From: a virus | IMG/VR virus record: IMGVR_UViG_3300020457_000001 | Coordinates: 1-42,160 of that record | Reading direction: 5' to 3' (one strand) | DNA: 42,160 nt | Part shown: positions 1 through 15,187 of the stretch, one piece after another | Layout of the letters: each line of letters begins with the position of its first letter | How positions within the stretch are numbered: the stretch's first letter is position 1 | Notes under the pieces: model-generated | Seen by the model: only the letters and a program-made list of their open reading frames with translations | Database searches by the model: none | Told to the model about the DNA's origin: nothing | Translations under genes and position numbers: made by a program

Positions 1-77
1 ATCATCGGAGCTGGTGCATCTGTCATCGTTATGGGTATCAGTAACATGAGTACCCGTAGAGATAGAGACACCAGAGA
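1..77. repeat. Left copy of 77-bp terminal direct repeat (circle junction)
   Basis: These 77 bases are identical to 42084-42160. A reading frame continues through the join without a break, so the two ends are the same place on a circular molecule. The length of 77 matches a common assembler k-mer, which suggests an assembly overlap rather than a physical terminal repeat of the virion DNA. Confidence 0.95.
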
Positions 78-156
78 GCTATTTAAGCGAATTAATGAAT
101 TGGAGAAATTAGTAGCGGGTTATCATCCTCCTCAACGGAATTGGCGAAAGCAGTGA
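1..156 (+). CDS. Small membrane protein, 3' part (gene starts at 42063)
   Basis: This is the downstream part of a 58-residue gene that begins with ATG at 42063 and crosses the circle junction; the TGA stop is at 154-156. The complete protein starts M-P-E-V-I-A-A-I-I-G-A-G-A-S and has one hydrophobic segment at about residues 3-20. A charged, mostly helical tail follows (R-R-D-R-D-T-R-E-L-F-K-R, then I-N-E-L-E-K-L). One transmembrane segment with a cytoplasmic coiled tail is the simplest reading. It overlaps the end of the 41879-42070 gene by 8 bases, so the two are probably co-translated. The function is unknown; small one-helix phage proteins include spanins and holin-like proteins, but nothing here proves such a role. 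Confidence 0.75.
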   Translation: MIGAGASVIVMGISNMSTRRDRDTRELFKRINELEKLVAGYHPPQRNWRKQ

Positions 157-160
157 AAAA

Positions 161-188
161 CCCCTAGCGTCCTCTAAGAAACTAGGGG
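161..188 (-). terminator. Rho-independent terminator for leftward transcription
   Basis: The inverted repeat CCCCTAG (161-167) / CTAGGGG (182-188) has a 14-base loop. On the minus strand it is followed by TTTTTC. It fits termination of leftward transcripts coming from the gene at 356-571. Confidence 0.7.
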
Positions 189-355
189 CTTCCCTGATAC
201 ATCAAGTCCCACCTCGATGGTTAATAACTTACTTGTGTGAGTAGTAAATTACTTTAAAAGTCTAATTAGTTTTGATTTTTTGGGAACTGGCGAAATAAAA
301 AAGATTAGCTAACTTTGAAATGGGTCTGCATTAGATCTGCGATTAAGAGGAATGT

Positions 356-571
356 TCAATCCCGCCTTACCCATAGCGGGATTTTTTTTAGGTTAGCTTC
401 GTAAGCTTTTTCAATTCTTTCTTCTAATTCAAGTCTTTTACTGATCGCAAATAAACCTGTATAAACGCCATGAAATTTGTGCGTCTTTTTTGCTCTTCCA
501 TCCCTCAAATACCATTTGTCCATATCCCTTGTTCGTTGTCTATCTTCTTCCAACCATTCGGGTTGATACAT
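356..571 (-). CDS. Hypothetical early protein, 71 aa
   Basis: The 71-residue soluble protein is rich in charged residues (W-L-E-E-D-R-Q-R-T-R-D-M at the start, R-L-E-L-E-E-R-I-E-K in the second half), with a helical, possibly coiled C-terminal half. I do not recognise a family. Its last codons overlap the rightward terminator at 358-389, so the convergent transcripts overlap here. Its ATG lies two bases from a possible plus-strand ATG at 570 (shared CATG), which is one reason to start the rightward neighbour further in. No clear operator palindrome is seen upstream. Confidence 0.6.
   Translation of the reverse strand: MYQPEWLEEDRQRTRDMDKWYLRDGRAKKTHKFHGVYTGLFAISKRLELEERIEKAYEANLKKIPLWVRRD
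358..389 (+). terminator. Rho-independent terminator for rightward transcription
   Basis: AATCCCGC (358-365) pairs with GCGGGATT (376-383) around a 10-base loop, and a run of eight T ends at 389. It is the likely end of the rightward transcript that crosses the circle junction. It lies inside the 3' end of the opposing 71-residue gene. Confidence 0.85.
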
Positions 572-614
572 GACTTTAAATAAATTAGTTGATTGGTTAA
601 TAGTTGAACCCTCT

Positions 615-902
615 ATGGAGCAAGAGTTAAAACTCGAACTCGAAGAGAGGGCTATTTTAATATCTGAAGACCACCAAGAGACAGCAAATTTGTGTGCTTC
701 TTTATGGAGACAGAATTGGTATAAAGACGAAATATTAAAAAATTGTCTTGGAAGAATTGGAGAGCTAGAAGGAAAATTAGTTCACATGGAAATGCAAAAA
801 TCTAGCTCTTGTTGGCAGCGTTTACTTAAAAAGGTATTTCCTCAGAAGAAGATCTCCTCCCATCCTGAGCTTGACGCTGTGCTTCAGTCTTTTGTGGATT
901 GA
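615..902 (+). CDS. Small hypothetical protein (M-E-Q-E-L-K-L-E-L type)
   Basis: The protein has 95 residues when started at ATG 615. An in-frame ATG at 570 would add 15 residues but collides with the start codon of the opposing gene. The N-terminus from 615 (M-E-Q-E-L-K-L-E-L-E-E-R-A-I-L) followed by A-N-L-C-A-S-L-W-R-Q-N-W-Y resembles a family of short helical proteins that I have seen in marine cyanophages, with no known function. The core is helical, ends in a coiled segment (R-I-G-E-L-E-G-K-L) and has a basic tail. Its 3' end overlaps the convergent SSB-like gene by 77 bases. It is one of only two rightward genes in the left block. Confidence 0.6.
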   Translation: MEQELKLELEERAILISEDHQETANLCASLWRQNWYKDEILKNCLGRIGELEGKLVHMEMQKSSSCWQRLLKKVFPQKKISSHPELDAVLQSFVD

Positions 903-1191
903 TGTTTCCAAAAGATCCATATTGACCTTCTTTACCTTTGCCGTTAACCCAGACAACTTTTACTTCTATTTCTTTTTGCTGCTCATAGTTCCAAACTGTT
1001 CCATCAACAACTTTGTCTGGATCATCCAGCAAACTCATTAAGTAATTGCAAAAAGGAGTAATTGATTCAGCAGGAATTTTTAGTCCTAGCTGACTAGGCC
1101 AATCTCCTTCTGTGTCATATTTGTTCTGTCCTACTGACCAAGTAATTGGATGAGGAAGAGCAGGTTGGAATTTGTACTCGTTTCTTGGCAT
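826..1191 (-). CDS. ssb: Probable single-stranded DNA-binding protein (SSB-like)
   Basis: The 121-residue protein ends in S-S-S-E-E-I-P-F. The acidic tip ending in I-P-F is the hallmark of bacterial-type SSB proteins and docks partner enzymes of replication and recombination. The body (about residues 1-95) is beta-rich, with aromatic residues suited to DNA stacking and a K-V-V-W-V-N-G-K-G strand pair; a flexible Q/R/S-rich linker (about 96-115) joins it to the tip. I do not recognise a standard OB-fold SSB sequence, so the call rests on the tail, the domain layout and the position directly after the ERF annealing protein in the same leftward operon. It would coat single-stranded phage DNA during replication and recombination. 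Confidence 0.7.
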   Translation of the reverse strand: MPRNEYKFQPALPHPITWSVGQNKYDTEGDWPSQLGLKIPAESITPFCNYLMSLLDDPDKVVDGTVWNYEQQKEIEVKVVWVNGKGKEGQYGSFGNINPQKTEAQRQAQDGRRSSSEEIPF

Positions 1192-1270
1192 TTTTTTGAT
1201 TGGATAAATTGCGGTTTTTTAGTTGATGAAGAACTTGCTGTGCAGCATGTTCGGCTGCTTCTGGTGTCAT
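1115..1270 (-). CDS. Possible 51-aa protein between ERF and SSB-like genes
   Basis: ATG at 1270 lies 4 bases after the ERF stop codon, close enough for coupled translation. The first part is helical (M-T-P-E-A-A-E-H-A-A-Q-Q-V-L). The second half is read out of frame with the SSB-like gene and becomes serine-rich and atypical. It could be a genuine short gene or a chance frame filling the 83-base gap. Confidence 0.25.
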   Translation of the reverse strand: MTPEAAEHAAQQVLHQLKNRNLSNQKNAKKRVQIPTCSSSSNYLVSRTEQI

Positions 1271-1274
1271 TTGC

Positions 1275-1973
1275 TCAAGCTAATTTTTCAATAGCTTGCT
1301 GCAAAAATTGACCATGTGAAGCAAGTGTTATGTGTTGTGGCGAAATTTGGTCTGCTGAAATGTTGAACTCCTGTTTAAAGGCACTCAACACCCTTGCTTT
1401 GTTTGAATCGTTTAGGGCAGAAATCTTGCCACCTATTTCTTCTCTGGCTGCTGGAGTCATAAATTTATTGTTCTTTACTTCTGTTTTTTTACCTTGTGAA
1501 TCTGGTCTGGTTGGTGTTCTGCTGATACCTGTTTTTTTTGGTAGTGGCTCTTTTACATCACCTAATTCTGTATCTTGCTCAGTGTTAGTATCCATATCTG
1601 GCTCAATCCCAAGCAACATTTTTATTGCATATCGTCTTCCATAGGTCAATCCGCCACCCCATGCAAATTGTGGTTTTGATCCCATGTTCTCAGGTAGGAA
1701 AAGAGGCATTTCGCTTTTAATTTCTTCTCCAGACTCAACATGAATTAAACGGGTAACAATTAAAGTTTGACCATGATCGTTATAAGCTTGAGGCTGAATA
1801 AGAATCAGACCATTAGCATGTAGAACAGGTTGAATTGATGAAATTAAATTTTCTAATGAGCAATATTTATATTGATACTTACCCATCCCTGCTGTCTTGT
1901 CTTTTTTAAGATCAGGCAGTTGTTTTTGAAAGTTTAGAAGTGACTCATAGAGAGTCTTGTTTTTTTGTGCCAT
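1275..1973 (-). CDS. erf: ERF-family single-strand annealing protein
   Basis: The 232-residue protein matches the ERF (essential recombination function) family of phage single-strand annealing proteins, which pair complementary strands during recombination-dependent replication and genome circularisation. Features seen are Y-Q-Y-K-Y-C-S-L-E-N-L-I at about 33-44, H-A-N-G-L-I-L at 51-57, and the signature G-G-G-L-T-Y-G-R-R-Y-A-I-K-M-L-L-G-I near residues 105-122. A charged linker and a small C-terminal helical domain follow. It is first in a leftward unit with its own operator-bearing promoter (1995-2025), and the leader carries the TCAACCACA element one base before ATG with no Shine-Dalgarno sequence. 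An SSB-like protein follows downstream. Confidence 0.9.
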   Translation of the reverse strand: MAQKNKTLYESLLNFQKQLPDLKKDKTAGMGKYQYKYCSLENLISSIQPVLHANGLILIQPQAYNDHGQTLIVTRLIHVESGEEIKSEMPLFLPENMGSKPQFAWGGGLTYGRRYAIKMLLGIEPDMDTNTEQDTELGDVKEPLPKKTGISRTPTRPDSQGKKTEVKNNKFMTPAAREEIGGKISALNDSNKARVLSAFKQEFNISADQISPQHITLASHGQFLQQAIEKLA

Positions 1974-1974
1974 G

Positions 1975-2025
1975 TGTGGTTGAAGTGAACTATTTAATCT
2001 TAATAAGCTAAATACTTATTGTCAA
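1975..2025 (-). promoter_or_regulatory. Early promoter/operator and leader element of ERF gene
   Basis: Reading the minus strand: TTGACA (-35, 2025-2020), a 17-base spacer, TAAGAT (-10, 2002-1997) inside an operator-like palindrome (1995-2010, one arm slightly degenerate). The leader element TCAACCACA (1983-1975) follows, almost touching the ATG. The -35 box overlaps the last codons of the upstream RusA gene. Confidence 0.75.
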
Positions 2026-2480
2026 TAAGATAAAGCAAAAGGTGTTATAAAAATGTTTGCTCCCAATAGTTCATCTTCCTTTGCATATTTTTTTATGGCT
2101 TTTAATGATACCACTAAACTGTCATCCTTAATAACAGTTCCTCCTGCTTTAGCTGATAAGCCATCTAAAGTTGATCTGCATAATTTATCTATGTCTCCTG
2201 TTGCGGAACTTGTTACAAACTCAGGTGCTTTTTGTTTTAATTTGTTTGCATTTTTTCCTGTTCCAAAATGACTCTTTGGTCTAGCAAATAAAAACACAAT
2301 TTCTATTTCTACAGCTCTATCAATTACTGATCCTTCATAATGATCTATGGCAGCAGCTCGGACATCTTGCCGCCACGGTTTAACTTTCTTGCTGTTCTCA
2401 ATCATAATTCCATGACCAATATGTCTCTTGCTTCCTTGTGGAGCTGGAAGACCTCGAACAGGAATAAAAATCTTATCCAT
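2022..2480 (-). CDS. rusA: RusA-type Holliday junction resolvase
   Basis: The 152-residue protein has the RusA endonuclease pattern: an N-terminal strand with G-L-P-A-P-Q-G-S-K, a central F-L-F-A-R-P-K-S strand, then G-D-I-D-K-L (D96, D98, K99), S-T-L-D-G-L, and K-D-D-S-L-V-V (D119/D120). These acidic residues match the metal-binding catalytic set of RusA, which cuts four-way junctions. Length is near that of the family (about 120-150). The start codon overlaps the stop of the nuclease gene upstream by one base, so it belongs to the leftward replication operon. It would resolve branched DNA before packaging. Confidence 0.9.
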   Translation of the reverse strand: MDKIFIPVRGLPAPQGSKRHIGHGIMIENSKKVKPWRQDVRAAAIDHYEGSVIDRAVEIEIVFLFARPKSHFGTGKNANKLKQKAPEFVTSSATGDIDKLCRSTLDGLSAKAGGTVIKDDSLVVSLKAIKKYAKEDELLGANIFITPFALSY

Positions 2481-3157
2481 TAAAAAACTTCAACCTTTTC
2501 TTCAAAAGCTTCCCAAGCTTCTTTCCATTTCAATCGACAAGTTAAAGGATCTTGCTCTTCTCCAAAAACACATTTCCCCGGTCTTGCCCAAACTGTTCTG
2601 CAACTATCAACCACAATTCCATGATGGTTTGCAAGTGCGTCAACGTAACTTCCTAATTGAGCATCTGTTGAATAGGGTCTGGCGTTTTTCTTTGATTGCG
2701 TTTTTAGATCAATTAAAACTAGCTTTTGCAATTTGTGGTCATAACCCAAAAGATCAAATTGACCGCCTACTGACTTTTCTAAATCAGCCAGCATATATTC
2801 AACTGCGAGAGGTTCAAAGTTCAACCAATATTCATTTTCTAAAAGTGGCTTTGTCCATTCTTCATAATCACCGGGATCAGGATTCTTTTCACCCAACATC
2901 CTTTGCTGTAAACACCAATGCACCTTTTCGCCTCTGGGCTGCCAGATGTGTCTGTATCTTTCAATGTTTGCTAAAGCCTCTGGACTTTTTTGACTTGCAA
3001 TTTGTGTTGTAGAAAAAGCTAACCATTCGCCTGTTGGTTCCCAACAATACTGGTGGCGTTCTTCATCCCGATACATGGGCAGTGGTTTTAGGTTTAGATG
3101 ACTCCAAGCAGGATTGCGGTACAAGCTCGGATTGTTACCTAGTTCTTGATATTTCAT
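2480..3157 (-). CDS. PD-(D/E)XK nuclease (RecB/Cas4-like exonuclease)
   Basis: The 225-residue protein carries the core of the PD-(D/E)XK superfamily: E120 in a helix (E-P-L-A-V-E), D135 in G-G-Q-F-D-L-L-G, D150-x-K152 in L-I-D-L-K-T, and a Q-x-x-x-Y motif at 167-171 (Q-L-G-S-Y). That last motif is typical of RecB/Cas4/lambda-exonuclease-type enzymes. Next to an annealing protein it probably supplies 5'-end resection, making the single strands that ERF and the SSB-like protein handle. It overlaps the winged-helix gene upstream by 4 bases (ATGA). A long open frame lies antisense to it but lacks any domain. Confidence 0.85.
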   Translation of the reverse strand: MKYQELGNNPSLYRNPAWSHLNLKPLPMYRDEERHQYCWEPTGEWLAFSTTQIASQKSPEALANIERYRHIWQPRGEKVHWCLQQRMLGEKNPDPGDYEEWTKPLLENEYWLNFEPLAVEYMLADLEKSVGGQFDLLGYDHKLQKLVLIDLKTQSKKNARPYSTDAQLGSYVDALANHHGIVVDSCRTVWARPGKCVFGEEQDPLTCRLKWKEAWEAFEEKVEVF

Positions 3158-3498
3158 TGTTCAACTCCATGCTGGGTTGCAAAATAAACTCTTGCAGTTC
3201 GACCACTGCTTGTCGTTCTTCTTAGTGGTTTGTCTGTTTCTGGATCGTTTTGAAATTCAACATAAGGCGGTTGGCATGTAATTAAATCTCGTAAACGTGC
3301 AGAAGCCGTTTGATGTTTCATGCCAAGAATTTTTTCAACTTCATCACAAGTCAATCCAAAAGGACTCGACTTAACGGCATGTAAAACATCTCGGCACATT
3401 CCGTTGAGTTGATCAGCAATGCTTTCGGCTGCATCAATTGATGGCTCTGTGTGATTATGCGGAGCTGTCGAATAATTAAAAAGGTCTGTTTGGTTCAT
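3154..3498 (-). CDS. Winged-helix DNA-binding protein
   Basis: The 114-residue protein has an N-terminal acidic stretch and a helix-turn-helix at about 50-80 (G-L-T-C-D-E-V-E-K-I-L-G-M-K-H-Q-T-A-S-A-R-L-R-D-L). A wing-like beta hairpin rich in R and T follows (R-R-T-T-S-S-G-R-T-A-R-V-Y). This is the MarR/replication-protein type of winged helix found in many phage early operons. It could bind the replication origin or act as a regulator. Overlaps of 4 bases on both sides show translational coupling with the nuclease and the 90-residue protein. Confidence 0.7.
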   Translation of the reverse strand: MNQTDLFNYSTAPHNHTEPSIDAAESIADQLNGMCRDVLHAVKSSPFGLTCDEVEKILGMKHQTASARLRDLITCQPPYVEFQNDPETDKPLRRTTSSGRTARVYFATQHGVEQ

Positions 3499-3767
3499 GC
3501 TGGAAAATCTTTAGGGTCTACAAGTTCTACTGATTCAGATGGTGGTGTTTCTTCACGTGCCAAGTTCCGAAACCTGACACCTTCGTAACCTCTGGGGAAG
3601 ATCGCTAGGTTTGAATTTGCATCATCAATACATCTCTGAGCACCCGGACTTGGTTGATCTAAATCTTCCAATGTCCATTCTGTTCTTTCAGGATTTGAAG
3701 GATTAGGAGCTTTAAGCCCTCTCTTAAGCAATTTGATGACTGATGCTCTGTCATATAGCGGTTCCAT
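3495..3767 (-). CDS. Hypothetical early protein, 90 aa
   Basis: The 90-residue soluble protein begins with a helix suited to binding (Y-D-R-A-S-V-I-K-L-L-K-R-G-L) and continues with a Pro/Asp-rich, poorly structured part. No family is recognised. It is tightly packed between the replication-type protein (1-base overlap at the start) and the winged-helix protein, so a role as an accessory replication factor is plausible but not shown. Confidence 0.65.
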   Translation of the reverse strand: MEPLYDRASVIKLLKRGLKAPNPSNPERTEWTLEDLDQPSPGAQRCIDDANSNLAIFPRGYEGVRFRNLAREETPPSESVELVDPKDFPA

Positions 3768-4348
3768 TATTCAAAGCCTCTGGACGCTGTAAAGACTCTC
3801 TGAGCTGGATGTCCTGTTGTTGGTTCAGGATTCCATGAAGTTGTTTTTGCTTTTGCAAAAGTTTCGTAATTTTGCAACGTGATACTTTGCCACTCGTTTG
3901 CAATTGCCAAAGTGATTTGATCTTTCACAGCATCTTCACCATATTTCTTTTTTATCCCTATCAAACCTTTTTCACCCATCAACAAATTGAAAGCTGCTTC
4001 TGTCTTTTTCCCTTTCTTTGAGTGCCAAAAATCAACAATCAAACTAGATGCAGATTCAAGTTCAAAAGGGATCAGGTCAGCACTAAACTTAAACCTCTTT
4101 TTTTTCAAATTTTCTTTTTCCTTATTTATACTATTAGGTACTCTATTAGTATTAGATAAAATACCTCCCTCTTTTTTTGTTTCTCTCTCTCTTTCGTTCG
4201 GTATTTTAAGGGTATCACATGCGTCAACCCCTAAAAAATGGGTTTCTAGTGAATAGTTTATAAAAGCAGTCATTGACATGTAGCTGGGCTTTTTAGCTAA
4301 ACAATGCTGCATCACTTTGTGTTTAATTCGTATACTGTTTGTGGTCAT
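3767..4348 (-). CDS. Probable phage replication protein (initiator/loader type)
   Basis: The 193-residue protein is the first gene of the large leftward replication operon. It has an N-terminal helical part with a possible ribbon-helix-helix or HTH element (residues 1-40), a Lys/Asn-rich linker (60-85) and a C-terminal domain (about 90-190) with F-W-H-S-K-K-G-K-K-T-E-A-A-F and I-T-L-A-I-A-N-E-W-Q-S-I. That C-terminal pattern is seen in uncharacterised replication-block proteins of phages. No helicase, primase or polymerase exists elsewhere in the genome, so a protein that recruits the host replisome to the origin is expected, and this is the best candidate. Function is inferred from position. 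The leader carries TCAACCACA 13 bases before ATG. Confidence 0.55.
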   Translation of the reverse strand: MTTNSIRIKHKVMQHCLAKKPSYMSMTAFINYSLETHFLGVDACDTLKIPNERERETKKEGGILSNTNRVPNSINKEKENLKKKRFKFSADLIPFELESASSLIVDFWHSKKGKKTEAAFNLLMGEKGLIGIKKKYGEDAVKDQITLAIANEWQSITLQNYETFAKAKTTSWNPEPTTGHPAQRVFTASRGFE

Positions 4349-4361
4349 TGTGTACTCAGTT

Positions 4362-4418
4362 TGTGGTTGATTTGTGTAAGAAGCGTACTAATTATGCTAC
4401 ATGCAGTTTTAATGTCAA
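4362..4418 (-). promoter_or_regulatory. Promoter and leader element of the replication operon
   Basis: Minus strand: TTGACA (4418-4413), 16-base spacer, CATAAT (4396-4391), leader element TCAACCACA (4370-4362). Unlike its relatives it lacks the palindrome over the -10 box. It keeps a TAATCCTA half-site just before the -35 box. The leader and start region form an imperfect tandem repeat (about 4335-4357 and 4358-4380). Confidence 0.65.
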
Positions 4419-4452
4419 TAGGATTATCTGATAAGAAAGTTATTTGTTTTTT

Positions 4453-4480
4453 TTGAGGGGTTTGCAACAATGTGTATAAT
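4453..4480 (+). promoter_or_regulatory. Rightward promoter, divergent from the replication operon
   Basis: TTGAGG (4453-4458), 16-base spacer, perfect TATAAT (4475-4480) on the plus strand. It points at the 51-residue gene starting at 4513, which has AGAGG about 9 bases before its ATG. A short hairpin AGCTT/AAGCT lies in the leader. Confidence 0.65.
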
Positions 4481-4512
4481 TAGCTTGACCTGAAGCTCAG
4501 AGGCATTTGCCA

Positions 4513-4668
4513 ATGACCACTAGGACGCAACAAATAAAAAAAGACCTCCAATGCTATGGAGTAGACCCTTTTCAAATTGCAGCAGAAGCAATTGAACGGG
4601 GTGATCGTTTAGCCCTTCAAGTCAAACGATTAGAAGCAATAGTCAATCAGGCTTCATTCAACGCTTGA
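4513..4668 (+). CDS. Small rightward early protein, 51 aa
   Basis: The protein starts M-T-T-R-T-Q-Q-I-K-K-D-L and is one helical domain with a coiled C-terminal part (L-A-L-Q-V-K-R-L-E-A-I-V). A good promoter and Shine-Dalgarno sequence precede it. It runs against the RHH gene, and the two overlap by 22 bases at their 3' ends. It is the only rightward gene in the middle of the leftward early block, a position often held by a regulator, but no DNA-binding motif is convincing. Function unknown. Confidence 0.6.
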   Translation: MTTRTQQIKKDLQCYGVDPFQIAAEAIERGDRLALQVKRLEAIVNQASFNA

Positions 4669-4808
4669 TCTATTAGACCTCTAACAATTTCGCTATTGCT
4701 TACACCAGCAGCAACAGCCAACTGGTTGACTTTATTTTTTACTTCTGGTGTGACGCTGGTTTGTAGGATCTCGCTCCAAAGTTCAGATCCTCTTGCTTTG
4801 TTTGGCAT
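4647..4808 (-). CDS. Ribbon-helix-helix (CopG/Arc-like) regulator
   Basis: The 53-residue protein has the layout of an RHH transcription factor: a strand (I-L-Q-T-S-V-T-P, about 14-21), helix 1 (E-V-K-N-K-V-N-Q-L-A-V-A-A-G), a turn with S-N-S-E, and helix 2 (I-V-R-G-L-I-D-Q-A-L). Such proteins dimerise and bind short palindromes with the paired strands in the major groove. It is the best candidate in the genome for the protein that reads the repeated TAATCTTAnTAAGATTA operators. Its own -10 region contains TTAATCTTAA, so self-regulation is likely. Binding to these sites is inference. Confidence 0.75.
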   Translation of the reverse strand: MPNKARGSELWSEILQTSVTPEVKNKVNQLAVAAGVSNSEIVRGLIDQALNEA

Positions 4809-4823
4809 AATTAGTTCCTGTTA

Positions 4824-4852
4824 ATCTTAATAATATAATAAAAAACCTGAAA
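4824..4852 (-). promoter_or_regulatory. Weak promoter with operator half-site before RHH gene
   Basis: TAAGAT (4829-4824 on the minus strand) sits in TTAATCTTAA. A 17-base spacer leads to TTTCAG (4852-4847), a poor -35 box. It resembles the other early promoters but is weaker and lacks the TCAACCACA leader element. Confidence 0.45.
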
Positions 4853-4873
4853 AGCTATTGCCTCGCAGGTTTT
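4842..4873 (-). terminator. Terminator after the 76-aa early gene
   Basis: AAAACCTG (4842-4849) pairs with CAGGTTTT (4866-4873) across a 16-base loop. On the minus strand a T-rich stretch follows. It ends the leftward transcript of 4884-5114 and abuts the RHH promoter. Confidence 0.7.
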
Positions 4874-4883
4874 GGTGTTTTGT

Positions 4884-5114
4884 TTAGTAGTTCAATCCTA
4901 CTGTGTGCTTAGTGCAAGACCAGGTAAGACCTTCTTTTTTTGCGTCTGCAATAAGTTCGTTCTTCTCGTCTTCTGAATAAGCATGTTCATCCCATTTGTT
5001 AGTTGTGATGAACCAGTAGTAACTTGGATTCTCTTCCGCATATTTTTCCTCTCTTGCTTGGATGTCAAGTTGTTCGAGGTGGCGGTTTAAATCTGATTCA
5101 ACTGGGCAAGACAT
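4884..5114 (-). CDS. Hypothetical early protein, 76 aa
   Basis: The 76-residue acidic, soluble protein has a helical N-terminal half (L-N-R-H-L-E-Q-L-D-I-Q-A-R-E-E) and a W/Y-rich centre (P-S-Y-Y-W-F-I-T-T-N-K-W-D). No family is recognised. It is a single-gene unit with its own operator promoter and terminator, a pattern typical of phage early host-takeover genes. The leader element TCAACCACA touches the ATG directly (5123-5115), and no Shine-Dalgarno sequence is present. Confidence 0.65.
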   Translation of the reverse strand: MSCPVESDLNRHLEQLDIQAREEKYAEENPSYYWFITTNKWDEHAYSEDEKNELIADAKKEGLTWSCTKHTVGLNY

Positions 5115-5167
5115 TGTGGTTGATGTGTAACTGATTTAATCTTATTAAGATTATTGGATAATGTCAA
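5115..5167 (-). promoter_or_regulatory. Early promoter/operator and leader element
   Basis: Minus strand: TTGACA (5167-5162), 17-base spacer, TAAGAT (5144-5139) within the perfect palindrome TAATCTTATTAAGATTA (5137-5153). A second half-site TAATCTTA lies directly upstream of the -35 box. TCAACCACA (5123-5115) is the whole gap to the ATG of the 76-residue gene. Confidence 0.8.
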
Positions 5168-5201
5168 TAAGATTAATTATTTATTACGGATCCGTCATAT
5201 T

Positions 5202-5267
5202 AGGGGCTTGTTCTGAAGTGGCTTAAGAAGAACCTCAACCACGGGATTCTTCAAATCAGCAAGCCCC
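5202..5267 (-). ncRNA. Candidate structured small RNA with GUGGUUGA loop
   Basis: This non-coding stretch folds into one long hairpin. The outer stem is GGGGCTTG (5203-5210) with CAAGCCCC (5260-5267), continued by CTGA/TCAG (5213-5216, 5256-5259). The upper stem is GAAGAACC (5227-5234) with GGxxTTCTTC. The apical loop (5235-5242) is TCAACCAC on the plus strand, so a minus-strand RNA would show GUGGUUGA. That is the exact complement of the leader element UCAACCAC of six early mRNAs. A minus-strand promoter (5274-5302) would start transcription at the foot of the stem. If the plus strand is transcribed instead, the loop would copy the leader element and could act as a decoy. No terminator T-run follows the stem. 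Confidence 0.5.
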
Positions 5268-5273
5268 GTTCTT

Positions 5274-5302
5274 ATTCTAATTGAGATTAGAAGAATTTCC
5301 AA
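5274..5302 (-). promoter_or_regulatory. Promoter for the candidate hairpin RNA
   Basis: Minus strand: TTGGAA (5302-5297), 17-base spacer, TAGAAT (5279-5274). Start of transcription is expected about 7 bases further, at 5267, the first G of the hairpin. The -10 region overlaps a palindrome TTCTAAT-TGAG-ATTAGAA, a variant of the early operator. Confidence 0.5.
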
Positions 5303-5311
5303 TAATCCTTA

Positions 5312-5506
5312 TTAATCCCATTCCTTTATTTGTTGGATCAAATCATAATATTCAGATTTTAATTCGATATATCTGCTAAGAGCCAATTCTTTTTCAATCG
5401 GATCGTCTTCTGGTGTCTCCTTCCATTTCTTTCTGTGTTCTTCGTAGGCTATTTTTTTTATTAAAGCGTTGAGCTTGATTTTTTTAAGTTTAAGATCGTT
5501 GTTCAT
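5312..5506 (-). CDS. Hypothetical early protein, 64 aa
   Basis: The ATG at 5506 follows the stop of the gene upstream by two bases (TAAAAATG). The frame extends further 5', but that part overlaps the neighbour in another frame and looks artificial. The protein is highly charged and helical (N-D-L-K-L-K-K-I-K-L-N-A-L-I-K-K, then Y-I-E-L-K-S-E-Y-Y-D-L-I-Q-Q-I), probably a coiled coil. Function unknown. It is the last gene of the unit beginning at 5724. Confidence 0.6.
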   Translation of the reverse strand: MNNDLKLKKIKLNALIKKIAYEEHRKKWKETPEDDPIEKELALSRYIELKSEYYDLIQQIKEWD

Positions 5507-5508
5507 TT

Positions 5509-5724
5509 TTATGGTGCAGGAATAAGCATGTGTTGGGCGTGTTCTGATGTTCTCCCGTCTTTCCATTTGACGGTGCAATAAATACAGGGAGTTCCTTTTT
5601 TATTGGATTTCTCCCTCATTGATATGACCTGCCCAACAGCAGGGCCGATTTCTAAAAACATTCCTGCGGTGGTTCTTCTCTTGTTTACAGAATCCCCTTC
5701 TTTGTATTTGGCGGTTGCTGGCAT
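5509..5724 (-). CDS. Small SH3-like/KOW-like hypothetical protein
   Basis: The 71-residue protein reads K-E-G-D-S-V-N-K-R ... G-P-A-V-G-Q-V-I-S-M-R ... I-Y-C-T-V-K-W-K-D-G-R ... H-M-L-I-P. The alternation of strands with G-D, G-x-V and V-K-W-x-D-G is typical of small SH3-like barrels (KOW or chromo-like), which bind nucleic acid or protein. Similar small proteins occur in marine phages. It lies just after a strong terminator (5742-5766), and I see no clear promoter in the short gap, so it may depend on read-through. Confidence 0.6.
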   Translation of the reverse strand: MPATAKYKEGDSVNKRRTTAGMFLEIGPAVGQVISMREKSNKKGTPCIYCTVKWKDGRTSEHAQHMLIPAP

Positions 5725-5741
5725 TGGTTTTATAAATAGGT

Positions 5742-5766
5742 AAAAAAAAGCCCCTTTTACGGGGCT
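5742..5766 (-). terminator. Terminator after the tail-anchored small protein gene
   Basis: AGCCCC (5749-5754) and GGGGCT (5761-5766) form a stem with a 6-base loop. On the minus strand eight T residues follow. It ends the short transcript carrying 5773-5955, with possible read-through into 5724. Confidence 0.85.
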
Positions 5767-5772
5767 GTGTAG

Positions 5773-5955
5773 TTAGAAGATGAACGCCCATGCAGATGCT
5801 AATCCTGCGATGGCAAATAGAACGGTTACTTCCTGTTCTAAATTTTTAACCCTGCGGCTTAGACCTTCATTTGTTGCTTTTAAAGTTTGGTTCTTGTTAT
5901 AAAGAACTGTTCTTGTTCCAGCGTTTGAAGGAATCTTGGCGGTGGTTGATGTCAT
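5773..5955 (-). CDS. Coiled-coil, C-terminally anchored membrane protein, 60 aa
   Basis: The 60-residue protein has a polar N-terminus, a heptad-like segment (L-S-R-R-V-K-N-L-E-Q-E-V, about 32-43) and a C-terminal hydrophobic helix (V-L-F-A-I-A-G-L-A-S-A-W-A-F-I-F). It is a probable tail-anchored inner-membrane protein with an N-in coiled coil. The leader has TCAACCACA at the very 5' end of the predicted mRNA (5978-5970). A second TCAACCAC copy occurs inside codons 2-5 (5949-5942), the only gene with two copies. Function unknown; a membrane role such as lysis control or exclusion is possible. Confidence 0.65.
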   Translation of the reverse strand: MTSTTAKIPSNAGTRTVLYNKNQTLKATNEGLSRRVKNLEQEVTVLFAIAGLASAWAFIF

Positions 5956-5969
5956 GGGATAAATCCATT

Positions 5970-6014
5970 TGTGGTTGACTTCGTAATCTTAGTAAGATTA
6001 TTCCATAATGTCAA
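5970..6014 (-). promoter_or_regulatory. Early promoter/operator and leader element
   Basis: Minus strand: TTGACA (6014-6009), 17-base spacer, TAAGAT (5991-5986) inside TAATCTTAGTAAGATTA (5984-6000), then TCAACCACA (5978-5970). The leader element lies 7 bases after the -10 box, at the expected 5' end of the mRNA. Confidence 0.8.
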
Positions 6015-6019
6015 TAAGA

Positions 6020-6199
6020 TTAATCCCATTTCTTTTCATAGATCAGCTTTCCTGCTTTTACAATTTCTTTCCCAAGTTGTTCATTAGTCCATTGTCTTTT
6101 GAAAGCCAAGCCTGACCAGTCTTCTGTTGTCAGAGCTTTTAAAACTTTCGTATTAAAAAACTCAATTGGCATTGAGTCAGGAATTTTGCTTAGATCCAT
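6020..6199 (-). CDS. Hypothetical early protein, 59 aa
   Basis: The open frame from ATG 6199 to TAA 6020 starts two bases after the stop of the upstream gene, so coupling is likely. The protein (M-D-L-S-K-I-P-D-S-M-P-I-E-F-F start, K-K-W-D end) is helical with several aromatic residues, and the segment N-E-Q-L-G-K-E-I-V-K-A-G-K-L-I could be a helix-turn-helix-like pair. No family is recognised. Its stop codon touches the next early promoter. Confidence 0.6.
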   Translation of the reverse strand: MDLSKIPDSMPIEFFNTKVLKALTTEDWSGLAFKRQWTNEQLGKEIVKAGKLIYEKKWD

Positions 6200-6201
6200 T
6201 T

Positions 6202-6621
6202 CTATTTGACCTCGGCAGCGATAACTCTTAAAGCGTTCAAGTACATCAAATCATTCATTGCTGCACCTATTCGGGTTTGAATAACACAATTAGCTTCTGC
6301 CTCAGAATAGACTTTTGCCTTCAGCTTTTCGGGTCGTTTTAAGTAATAAGAATCCTCCAAAACAAGCTTTTTCCATGCGTAAGGAAGATTGTTTTGTAAT
6401 GACTGATAAAAAGTTAGATCTTTTTCTACACGTTGAAGACATTCTTCAATTCTTGTAATTGGATAAATTTCTAAATCCTTTGTTCTTGCAAAAGTACGTT
6501 TAGAAACACAAGCAAATAAAAGTCTTGTTAAAGCCTTGTCAACATCACTTGTTTTCTTGTGGGCAGAATCGGCAAAGAAAATAGAGTCTTTGCCAATTTT
6601 TTTAAAGGCTCTTCCTGACAT
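6202..6621 (-). CDS. Hypothetical early protein, 139 aa
   Basis: The 139-residue protein is mostly alpha-helical (for example E-C-L-Q-R-V-E-K-D-L-T-F-Y-Q-S-L and E-A-N-C-V-I-Q-T-R-I-G-A-A-M-N) with a basic N-terminus. No motif points to an enzyme. The ATG overlaps the stop of the 159-residue protein, so the two are probably made together and may act together. The unit is driven from the operator promoter at 7231-7278. Confidence 0.6.
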   Translation of the reverse strand: MSGRAFKKIGKDSIFFADSAHKKTSDVDKALTRLLFACVSKRTFARTKDLEIYPITRIEECLQRVEKDLTFYQSLQNNLPYAWKKLVLEDSYYLKRPEKLKAKVYSEAEANCVIQTRIGAAMNDLMYLNALRVIAAEVK

Positions 6622-7100
6622 TATTTTTTTATCCCCTTTCTTGCTCTTTCAAATGCTCTTTCAATTTTTCTTTCTGTATTTGCTTGAACGTCAAATCCGG
6701 GCTGAGAAAAAGTTTTATAATCCACTTCATGCAGTACAAGGCAAGTGCGGTTGAGGTCATACCAAACTGCATTGGGTCTTGGATATTTACCTGTTGCATA
6801 ATGGAAATCTTTTCTTAGACCGCCAGCCATTTCGTGTGTGTTGCGTAAAGCTCTTAAGTCTGATTCTTTTACTTTTAGTTTTTTAGCTGTTTGAGCTGTT
6901 GAAGAAGTGAAATGAAAATCACCAACTTTGTAAGTTGGAACCATTGTTTCAACAATAGGATCTTTTTCTATTGTTTTTTTTGCAAACTCAACGCTTAACT
7001 TGTTTAAAAGTGTTTTGTGCAGGTCTAAGGATTGATTGTGCATATTGGCATCCAAAACAAGTTCTAAAAGCCTTTGCAGTTCAGTTTGAGTTAAATTCAT
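6621..7100 (-). CDS. Hypothetical protein with possible HTH, 159 aa
   Basis: The 159-residue protein has a helical N-terminal part (residues 1-45), then a central segment (about 66-90) that could be a helix-turn-helix (S-S-T-A-Q-T-A-K-K-L-K-V-K-E-S-D-L-R-A-L-R), a C-terminal beta part (N-A-V-W-Y-D-L-N-R-T-C-L-V-L) and a basic tail (R-A-F-E-R-A-R-K-G-I-K-K). DNA binding is plausible but unproven. Its ATG overlaps the stop of the 42-residue exported protein. Confidence 0.6.
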   Translation of the reverse strand: MNLTQTELQRLLELVLDANMHNQSLDLHKTLLNKLSVEFAKKTIEKDPIVETMVPTYKVGDFHFTSSTAQTAKKLKVKESDLRALRNTHEMAGGLRKDFHYATGKYPRPNAVWYDLNRTCLVLHEVDYKTFSQPGFDVQANTERKIERAFERARKGIKK

Positions 7101-7225
7101 TTTAGGGATTCACAAGCAAGTTGGATTTTGTTGACTTCGCAATCGTGCTTAGTCATGTCAGAAAGGGATGAACTAACACCCCAGAAAAGGATTGCTCCAA
7201 AGGAAGCAAAAAGTAAAAATCTCAT
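7097..7225 (-). CDS. Small exported or membrane-anchored protein, 42 aa
   Basis: The frame runs from ATG 7225 to TGA 7097. The N-terminus R-F-L-L-F-A-S-F-G-A-I-L-F-W-G-V is a signal peptide or single membrane anchor. A short polar tail with two cysteines (D-C-E and A-C-E) follows, which could form a disulfide outside the membrane. It opens the transcript from promoter 7231-7278 and overlaps the next gene by 4 bases. The leader contains TCAACCACA (7239-7231) with AAGG close to the start. Function unknown; candidates include superinfection exclusion or lysis regulation. Confidence 0.65.
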   Translation of the reverse strand: MRFLLFASFGAILFWGVSSSLSDMTKHDCEVNKIQLACESLK

Positions 7226-7230
7226 GGCCT

Positions 7231-7278
7231 TGTGGTTGACGGCTTTCTAATCTTAATAAGATTATTGCTTAATGTCAA
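7231..7278 (-). promoter_or_regulatory. Early promoter/operator and leader element
   Basis: Minus strand: TTGACA (7278-7273), 17-base spacer, TAAGAT (7255-7250) in the perfect palindrome TAATCTTAATAAGATTA (7248-7264), TCAACCACA (7239-7231). The -35 box lies inside the 3' end of the upstream gene 7262-7642. Confidence 0.8.
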
Positions 7279-7642
7279 TAACATTATTTATTTTTGCTTC
7301 TGCGATTGATTTCTTTGGTACTTCAAAATACTCATCAAATAATTCTCCATCTGCATTTGCAGCTTCCAGCCATCCTTTCGGGTGCAGCTCTTCTTCTAAA
7401 GCTTTCTGTTCAATATTCTTTATTGCTTGAAGTGTATCAAGTGCTTCAACTAAAGGATTCAATTCAGATCGAGTTAATCCAGCTTTTTTAATTTCAATAT
7501 CATTGATTGATAAAAGCAATCTCTGGATTGATCTATAGGCAACACCAGCATCATTAATTGCGGTTGTTTCCATTGGTTCCCAATTTCCAGCAGATTCTTC
7601 TTTATACAATTTGCCTTTGATCATTCTGACTTCTTTTGACAT
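7262..7642 (-). CDS. Hypothetical early protein, 126 aa
   Basis: The 126-residue protein starts with a strand pair (V-R-M-I-K-G-K-L-Y-K-E), then has two long helices (Y-R-S-I-Q-R-L-L-L-S-I-N-D-I-E-I and L-V-E-A-L-D-T-L-Q-A-I-K-N-I-E-Q) and an acidic C-terminus. No family is recognised. It lies beyond the UUCG-loop terminator, without a clear promoter of its own, so expression may rely on read-through from 7845. Its last codons contain the next promoter. Confidence 0.6.
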   Translation of the reverse strand: MSKEVRMIKGKLYKEESAGNWEPMETTAINDAGVAYRSIQRLLLSINDIEIKKAGLTRSELNPLVEALDTLQAIKNIEQKALEEELHPKGWLEAANADGELFDEYFEVPKKSIAEAKINNVIDIKQ

Positions 7643-7681
7643 GGTTCTTAAATAGGGGTGGGGTGGATGTAGGAAAAATAA

Positions 7682-7699
7682 AAAAGCCCCGAAGGGCTT
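7682..7699 (-). terminator. Terminator with UUCG tetraloop
   Basis: Minus strand: AAGCCC, loop TTCG closed by C-G, GGGCTT, then a T-rich tract. The C(UUCG)G tetraloop is unusually stable. It separates the 46-residue gene from 7262-7642. Confidence 0.85.
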
Positions 7700-7704
7700 G
7701 CTAA

Positions 7705-7845
7705 TTAATCTTTGATTAATTTCTTTTCTGATTCTGCAATTGCTTTAACTGATTCTTCAACTTCTTTGATATTAAGTTGGAAAACTTCGTCTCCTGCTTT
7801 CATTGTTTCCACAATTCCTTGCAGTGCGTCAGCGAATTTGCCCAT
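7705..7845 (-). CDS. Small helical early protein, 46 aa
   Basis: The open frame from ATG 7845 to TAA 7705 codes for a single long amphipathic helix pattern (M-G-K-F-A-D-A-L-Q-G-I-V-E-T-M-K, then E-V-E-E-S-V-K-A-I-A-E-S). It is preceded by AGGA about 9 bases before ATG and by the leader element TCAACCACA (7867-7859), and closed by the UUCG terminator. Function unknown. It is the first early gene next to the late operon and shares its operator region with a possible rightward promoter. Confidence 0.65.
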   Translation of the reverse strand: MGKFADALQGIVETMKAGDEVFQLNIKEVEESVKAIAESEKKLIKD

Positions 7846-7987
7846 GAATTAAGTCCTGTGTGGTTGACTTGCTAATCTTAATAAGATTATATGATTTAGT
7901 CAATCCCCTCTTTATCCATTCTCCATGTTTAACTTGCTGTTCTCTTATCTTCTGGCAATGCTCGCAATTACATAAATAATCCTGCAT
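7829..7987 (-). CDS. Possible 52-aa protein with C-x-C-x-x-C cluster
   Basis: The frame from ATG 7987 to TGA 7829 starts M-Q-D-Y-L-C-N-C-E-H-C-Q-K. The C-x-C-x-H-C spacing suggests a metal-binding knuckle. The second half is read through the operator promoter and the start of the 46-residue gene, so it is sequence under other constraints. It may be a real short gene in an otherwise empty 150-base gap or a chance frame. Confidence 0.3.
   Translation of the reverse strand: MQDYLCNCEHCQKIREQQVKHGEWIKRGLTKSYNLIKISKSTTQDLIHGQIR
7859..7903 (-). promoter_or_regulatory. Early promoter/operator overlapping a rightward promoter
   Basis: Minus strand: TTGACT (7903-7898), 17 bases, TAAGAT (7880-7875) in TAATCTTAATAAGATTA (7873-7889), TCAACCACA (7867-7859). 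The same DNA read rightward gives TTGACT (7864-7869), 17 bases, TTATAT (7887-7892), aimed at the late operon at 8057. A protein on this palindrome would block both. Confidence 0.7.
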
Positions 7988-8056
7988 TGGCTTGGATAGT
8001 TTCTTGCCTTACACTAATGGCCTATTAAACTCAAAGCATTTAAGCTTCTTTTATTT

Positions 8057-9256
8057 TTGACTTCAATACAAGATTTAAAAAGCGATCATAAAAACGCTCG
8101 TAAAAGGACAGACCGTTCTTCTTCCTTAATCAAAGAATCCTTAGAGAAATTTGGGGCGGCTCGTTCAATAGTTATAGATGAAGAAAACAGAATCCTTGCT
8201 GGTAATGGAACCATAGAAGGAGCAAAAGCAGCAGGCATAAAAAACCTTCGAGTAATAGAAACAGACGGTAAAGAAATTATTGCTGTCAAAAGAACTGGAC
8301 TAACAGAAGAGGACAAAGTTGGTTTAGCTCTTGCTGATAATAGAACTTCTGATTTATCCGAATGGGATGCTGAAATGCTTAAACAGCTTTCAGAAGAACA
8401 AGATTTAAATCCTTGGTTTAATGAAGGTGATCTTACTGAACTGATAGGAGAACCAGAAAAAGATGAAGGCTTAACCGATCCTGATGATGCTCCTAAAGCA
8501 CCAGAAGAACCAATAACAAAAGAAGGTGATTTATATATTCTTGGAAACCATCGTCTTCTCTGTGGTGACTCTACAAATATTGAGCATGTAGAAACTTTAA
8601 TGAATGGAAAGAAAGCAGATATGGTTTTTACAGATCCTCCTTATGGATGCAATATTAAGGGAGGAGCCAATAGTAGTAATTTAATTGCAGGAGATTTAAC
8701 TCAAGTAGCTATTCCATTTTCTTTTGATTTAGCAGTTGAAAGAGCAACAAAAGATGATGCTAGATTTTATTTTTGTGGTTCAGAAGGAAATATCTCTTTA
8801 TATGGCAAATTGTTTGATCGGTTTTTACATCAACTTCCAAGACATTTGATTTGGGTAAAAAATGGTTTTGTAATGAAACCTAATAATTACCATAATCAAT
8901 ATGAGATTATTTTCTTTGGTTACAAACCAAAAGGCGGTGGATTGAACCATTGGTATTCAGGCCGTACAGAATCAGAAGCTTCTGATATTTGGCTTATTAA
9001 AAGAGATCCATCAAAAGGATATTTACACCCAACTCAAAAACCGATAGAACTGCCAGAAAGAGCAATTACCAATAGTTCGCCTATTAATGGTCTGGTTTAT
9101 GAACCTTTTGGTGGTTCTGGCTCGACTCTGATTGCTTGTCAAAAAAATAATAGAGGATGTTATTCGATGGAGTTAGATCCTAAATATTGCGATGTCATCG
9201 TCAAAAGGTGGGAGGATTTTACTGGCAATAAAGCAAAACATGTAATATCTAATTAA
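8057..9256 (+). CDS. ParB-like domain fused to DNA methyltransferase
   Basis: The 399-residue protein has an N-terminal ParB/sulfiredoxin-like domain (about 1-125; signature I-L-A-G-N-G-T at 47-53) and a beta-class DNA methyltransferase domain (about 155-395). The catalytic D-P-P-Y is at 193-196, H-P-T-Q-K-P at 324-329, and the S-adenosylmethionine site F-G-G-S-G-S-T at 351-357. Such fusions are common in phages and methylate adenine N6 or cytosine N4. No cognate restriction enzyme is present, so roles in self-protection or marking DNA for packaging are likely. No ATG fits; TTG at 8057 is the best start (frame closed by TAA at 8015). It opens the late operon and overlaps the small terminase by one base. 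Confidence 0.9.
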   Translation: MTSIQDLKSDHKNARKRTDRSSSLIKESLEKFGAARSIVIDEENRILAGNGTIEGAKAAGIKNLRVIETDGKEIIAVKRTGLTEEDKVGLALADNRTSDLSEWDAEMLKQLSEEQDLNPWFNEGDLTELIGEPEKDEGLTDPDDAPKAPEEPITKEGDLYILGNHRLLCGDSTNIEHVETLMNGKKADMVFTDPPYGCNIKGGANSSNLIAGDLTQVAIPFSFDLAVERATKDDARFYFCGSEGNISLYGKLFDRFLHQLPRHLIWVKNGFVMKPNNYHNQYEIIFFGYKPKGGGLNHWYSGRTESEASDIWLIKRDPSKGYLHPTQKPIELPERAITNSSPINGLVYEPFGGSGSTLIACQKNNRGCYSMELDPKYCDVIVKRWEDFTGNKAKHVISN

Positions 9257-15157: not shown

Positions 15158-15187
15158 TATCTTAATAAGATTAGTGCTTTTTGTAAA
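15158..15187 (-). promoter_or_regulatory. Early-type promoter/operator inside the late operon
   Basis: Minus strand: TTTACA (15187-15182), 17-base spacer, TAAGAT (15164-15159) in a shortened palindrome (15158-15173). The design and spacing equal the early promoters 7-13 kb away. Confidence 0.7.

Follow-up and report, generated by a model that had tools for sequence, protein, structure and literature searches.

The stretch of DNA analysed here, hereafter the window, is a virus record of 42,160 nucleotides. Its terminase is most similar, at approximately 52% identity, to those of S-H1, KBS-S-2A, MED4-184 and MED4-117, all of which are phages of marine Synechococcus and Prochlorococcus, and given this kinship the host is probably a picocyanobacterium. 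The first 1-8 kb contain a block of minus-strand genes that includes genes for ERF, RusA and an exonuclease, along with a replication O-like gene. A search of the window for tRNA and tmRNA genes identified none. The region of the element described below had no match to isolated phages in a BLAST search, and the neighboring gene was not found in any isolated phage; the relatives used for the comparisons were metagenomic contigs (IMG/VR).

Six leaders on the minus strand share an identical short sequence, TCAACCACA, which we refer to as the leader tag. It is located at positions 1975-1983 before the ERF recombinase gene (1275-1973), at 4362-4370 before the replication O-like gene (3767-4348), at 5115-5123, where it abuts the ATG of the gene at 4884-5114 (MSCPVESD...), at 5970-5978 before the gene at 5773-5955, and before two small genes at 7231-7239 and 7859-7867, the latter of which begins with ATG GGCAAATTCGC. 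The tagged genes with predicted targets are thus those for ERF and the O-like protein as well as small genes of unknown function. Beyond these leaders, the exact sequence was found only once, at position 2607 on the plus strand, within a gene on the opposite strand. If one mismatch is allowed, the 9-mer tag occurs 14 times in the window as compared to 11.8 expected occurrences, and it is not over-represented by itself. A second copy on the minus strand, TCAACCACC, which contains the 8-mer TCAACCAC, is located at 5941-5949, just past the start codon of the gene at 5773-5955. The second TCAACCAC inside the start of this gene is present in the relatives too, and the gene may therefore have two target sites.

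A two-part stem presenting an 8-base loop, as described in the sequence-only reading, was confirmed at positions 5203-5267, where both strands can fold. On the minus strand, the 65-nt hairpin RNA is composed of an outer stem, GGGGCTTG/CAAGCCCC, a second stem, CTGA/TCAG, and an inner hairpin, GAAGAATC/GGTTCTTC, with a fold energy of -26.2 kcal/mol against a mean of -16.5 for shuffled sequences (z -3.56); the fold energy of the plus strand is -23.1 kcal/mol (z -2.68). The inner stem is formed by GAAGAACC and its partner, and the loop reads TCAACCAC on the plus strand and GTGGTTGA on the minus strand. This minus-strand loop, at positions 5235-5242, is the exact complement of the tag TCAACCAC, and the claim that it is complementary to all six early leaders holds, since each of them contains an exact TCAACCACA. 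In the window, 101 hairpins combine a stem of 8 bp with a loop of 6-12 nt and offer 247 loop 8-mers in total, among which 0.004 matches to the motif were expected and one was seen, this element being the only one of the 101 with the motif in its loop. Matches to at least five gene starts were obtained with a P of ~0.001 when the loop of the window element was shuffled. No U-run follows the hairpin, CAAGCCCC being succeeded by TAATAT, and no terminator-like site is listed there. Searches against Rfam with positions 1-9000 of the window and with contigs L011, L101, L102, L105, L095 and L168 identified no family, only weak chance matches.

The minus-strand promoter-like sequence TTGGAA-17-TAGAAT that had been noted upstream of the hairpin is present at 5302-5274. 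A distance of 6 nt separates the end of its -10 box from the first G of the stem, and it overlaps with an operator-like sequence, TAATCTCAATTAGAAT. Its -10 region is invariant in the relatives, and the -35 box is not kept in L033. A further operator/promoter core, AATCTTAATAAGATT, is located at 5138-5152 on the minus strand and belongs to the gene that follows the hairpin. Most other tagged operons are preceded by similar cores, and most tagged operons open with the common promoter core AATCTTATTAAGATT. The gene at 4647-4808 on the minus strand encodes a CopG-like ribbon-helix-helix protein, as indicated by weak matches to Pfam RHH_1 (E 0.0048) and to a PHROG CopG-like repressor (E 0.002). It sits behind a variant operator-like core and is without a tag in both clades of relatives described below. 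The protein is a candidate for the repressor that binds the core operator. The head scaffolding gene is immediately preceded by a near-perfect operator core, at 15158-15172, and has no leader tag, which hints that the transcription control of the early genes, and not their RNA control, may extend to late genes. A listing of promoters across isolated cyanophages was too noisy and was set aside.

The hairpin is kept in 12 related contigs (L006, L007, L008, L010, L011, L012, L014, L015, L016, L018, L032, L033), which together with the window are referred to as clade 1. In this clade the loop is invariant, and the 3' unpaired arm and the flanks are variable. The sequence ATCTCAATTAGAATA upstream of the element is invariant in the aligned clade-1 set, even where the preceding gene is different, and in L033 the conservation stops at this box. 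A new operator-promoter follows the hairpin in the inspected clade-1 contigs. A long version, at 5733-5912 in L011, spans 180 nt and accommodates an extra structured arm of ~115 nt within the same outer stem. Stems in clade 1 are nearly uniform, and the test for compensatory changes was confined to the second clade and to a wider group of hairpins with a similar scaffold.

In the second clade, represented by G001, G003 and G005, the same core is followed by the tag AAAAACCAC instead of TCAACCAC. A GTGGTT-type search of these three showed that each has a hairpin of the form GGGGC...GTTAGTGGTTTTTC...CCCC in a gap past a stop codon, the loop of which, UUAGUGGUUUUU, is the complement of the clade-2 tag. 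A search with the exact 18-nt core recovered the element also from L095, L100, L101, L102, L104, L105, L107 and L108; the loop is fixed by this search, while the outer stems were free to vary. The elements are 40 to 137 nt long in all, with arms of differing length before or after the loop hairpin. Among nine distinct clade-2 cores, 97% of cells pair, and compensatory changes on both sides were observed in 6 of the 16 pairs, with a covariation score that was reached by none of 500 shuffles. The stem is thus kept among the relatives, with a constant loop in clade 1 and compensation in clade 2, as the antisense interpretation had anticipated. The clade-2 elements are located in 3' untranslated regions, some of them just ahead of an intrinsic terminator, and no promoter of their own is evident; they would thus need to be released by processing. 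As a side observation, the -35 element of most clade-2 promoters (e.g., in L077 and L079) is TGTACA, as compared to TTGACA in clade 1, with the same operator-like core.

We compared the leaders of the two clades. Among distinct operator-to-start leaders, 37 in clade 1 contain TCAACCAC and none contains AAAACCAC, with the corresponding numbers in clade 2 being 0 and 35. Among the listed leaders, NTCAACCAC was identified in 78 of 80 in clade 1 and AAAAACCAC in 51 of 58 in clade 2. The tag has switched in at least nine orthologs (MTTTILQPL, MKLLTKAL, the O-like gene, MSCPVESD, ERF, MIHDDPN, MSDFHET, MNNNLTDY and MTTITAKN). For three of the window genes, the clade-2 counterpart of the tag is AAAAACCAC (ERF and MSCPVESD) or TAAAACCAC (the O-like gene). 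Almost the same sequence surrounds the tag in the two MTTITAKN leaders (TCAACCACACAGGAGTTTTCCAAATG versus AAAAACCACGGAGTTTTCCAAATG), and in the MIHDDPN pair the tag is switched within a closely similar leader, the 14 nt displayed upstream of it containing no operator. The 7-mer shuffled-loop test yielded P values of 0.02-0.12 for clade 2 and is weak since the loop is U-rich, for which reason the case for this clade rests on the partition of the tags and the switches among orthologs. The predicted duplex energies are -12.9 and -10.8 kcal/mol for the cognate combinations and -8.7 and -8.2 kcal/mol for the non-cognate ones. This discrimination between clades is not absolute, as the clade-1 loop paired with a clade-2 leader that has GG after the tag gives -14.4 kcal/mol. 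Cofolding, which cannot score kissing-loop pairs, was set aside.

The loop and the tags thus differ jointly between the clades. The nine switches and the loop separate two clades and may phylogenetically represent one event; a joint difference at nine targets and one loop would be hard to explain without pairing. The proposal that a minus-strand RNA pairs through its loop with the early leaders is supported by the finding that complementarity has been kept though both sides have changed, and we regard loop-leader pairing as very likely. The tag ends 0-15 nt ahead of the start codon, and the distance from operator to tag ranges from 6 to 30 nt. The variable distance to the core and the closeness to the start codon therefore favor a role at the RNA level.

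Searches with GTCATGTAAGNCCCC and with GGGGCRTTGA...TCATGTAAGNCCCC recovered the clade-2 scaffold in other phages, with different loops. These hairpins are mostly located directly after an ssb-like gene, so labeled here from a reading of the gene and not from a family search, and before a U-run. The second helix of the scaffold group also covaries. The scaffold, GGGGCATTGA...TCATGTAAGACCCC, was seen with varied loops in L119, L131, L135, L140, L144, L150, L157, L162 and L165-L175, and no scaffold was found in bacterial genomes. CCUCCUU, the complement of the AAGGAGGAT before the gene starting with MNELITSD, forms part of the loop in several of these phages, among them L119, L135 and L140. When the loops of the scaffold group were compared to the gene starts of their own phages, there was no match beyond chance; the scaffold may have a further role, as a terminator or processing signal, or targets may have been missed.

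Signs of additional tags were also seen. In L196 (3587-4003), ATACCAC is present in two leaders after the same operator, and is a possible third tag allele that would predict the loop GUGGUAU. This 4-kb contig contains no partner hairpin, and a scaffold search with the loop GTGGTAT, using one pattern, found none. The more distant relatives L197 and L198 have ACACCAC near gene starts, with no convincing partner hairpin. The related phages L181 and L183 have another repeated palindrome, TGGCATGCCATAAT, before genes, and leaders that end with ACCAC before the start codon.

Taken together, we favor with moderate confidence a trans-acting antisense RNA, the loop of which would pair with the start regions of many early mRNAs and most likely repress their translation. 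The minus strand of 5203-5267 would encode this small structured RNA, the apical loop of which, GUGGUUGA, would form 8 base pairs with UCAACCAC close to the 5' ends of the early mRNAs. Such pairing would cover the landing site of the ribosome, so that translation of many early genes would be lowered together. Transcription of the RNA probably begins at a promoter of its own in clade 1, and in clade 2 the RNA would have to be released from 3' untranslated regions by processing. The probable function of the RNA would be that of a shut-off, or of an additional layer of control atop a repressor that binds to the common AATCTTATTAAGATT operators. From its anatomy, the element could plausibly switch early translation on or off. 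We infer the direction of control from this anatomy: the tag lies within the footprint of the ribosome and, given that pairing occurs, repression is the likely outcome.

The opposite direction is less probable, although it is the alternative that fares best. Pairing could activate the leaders, either by shielding their 5' ends from nucleases or by aiding the start of translation on leaders that are mostly poor in Shine-Dalgarno sequences. The tag is indeed close to the predicted 5' end, and a Shine-Dalgarno match was identified in only 8 of 51 tagged genes in clade 1 and 13 of 43 in clade 2. However, such matches are also scarce in the other open reading frames of the window (14 of 45), and the tag is located within 4 nt of the start codon in 19 of 51 genes in clade 1 and 24 of 43 in clade 2, a position at which pairing would interfere with initiation. 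We therefore consider activation to be unlikely.

Two further explanations have a low probability. In the first, the RNA would pair with the nascent leader and thereby stop transcription prematurely instead of blocking translation, which is the mechanism of the CI RNA of phage P4 (PMC4825925). The predicted transcripts have the tag within approximately their first 20 nt, as would suit such a mechanism, but the leaders are short, and with 0-15 nt between the tag and the start codon there would be little room for a decision on termination before translation starts. It is equally improbable that a DNA- or RNA-binding protein recognizes the tag and that the hairpin holds another copy of this site, as a decoy or for autoregulation. 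The tags adjoin operators, and at the level of duplex DNA the hairpin loop and the tag are one and the same site. Arguments against this reading are the variable spacing between operator and tag, the tagged ortholog pair that has no operator in the 14 nt displayed upstream of its tag, the covariation of the stems, and the display of the complement, rather than the tag itself, by the hairpin in the sense of the transcript. The plus-strand decoy that the sequence-only reading had offered as an option is likewise disfavored, since the conserved -10 box and the orientation relative to the neighboring early genes predict the antisense strand. A conventional role of the hairpin in termination or processing, with a match to the leaders by chance, is suggested by the wider scaffold group, which precedes U-runs in a terminator-like manner, but is very improbable given the probability of ~0.004 for the loop match in the window, its recurrence with another sequence in a second clade and the lack of a U-run after the window element.

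The antisense RNA that we favor has close analogues, and the earlier statement that no phage system of this kind has been described was too strong. The c4 RNA of P1 and P7 is a structured phage antisense RNA with complementary loops that pairs around the ribosome binding site and blocks translation (PMC12197685); it is described as a processed RNA of 77 nt (PMC8546580), and its precursor as a substrate of RNase P (PMC4919922). As in c4, the loop of the element studied here is an antisense sequence complementary to phage mRNA near the start of translation, and the position of the clade-2 elements in 3' untranslated regions is compatible with processing of the c4 type. In contrast to c4, which targets the ant mRNA, one loop here faces at least nine separate leaders, with no ant mRNA among the targets seen, and there was no match to an Rfam covariance model. 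The CI RNA of P4 is short and processed and, by pairing with complementary sequences in transcripts of the phage, keeps replication genes from being expressed (PMC4825925). It pairs with seqA and seqC up- and downstream of itself and causes premature termination, whereas the tags here are found in scattered operons beside start codons. VpdS of phage VP882 is a small RNA that acts in trans on both phage and host mRNAs (PMC12197685). It is bound by Hfq, while the element here forms a closed hairpin, in clade 1 with no U-run at the 3' end, and its targets, so far as they were seen, are phage leaders. Cyanophage S-PM2 also encodes an antisense RNA, CfrI (PMC12197685), which is tied to psbA and the neighboring homing endonuclease gene, as compared to the regulon with a common tag predicted here. 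Coordinated change of RNA and target, along with conserved secondary structure (in clade 2 and the scaffold group), are general characteristics of trans-acting antisense RNAs and were both observed. As judged from these comparisons, the predicted mode of action is that of the c4 and CI RNAs with a regulon of many genes, and the element is not assigned to either family, given the lack of a covariance-model match and the differences in targets and layout.

On a tentative note, the constant stem scaffold with an exchangeable loop may represent an RNA family that addresses a whole regulon of early genes, with loop and tags co-evolving as matched alleles. Related phages might then regulate the early genes in their own genomes, and perhaps the early genes of competitors with the same allele, but not those of the other allele, thereby forming RNA-based immunity groups. 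The loop-leader switch makes direct predictions for base swaps in its two partners, which are open to testing in a model bacterium in the absence of the phage. Antisense RNAs such as those of c4 and CI each have a single phage transcript as their target. One loop serving at least nine early genes, with matched alleles of loop and tag in sister phages, would give marine phages a compact master switch that acts after transcription.
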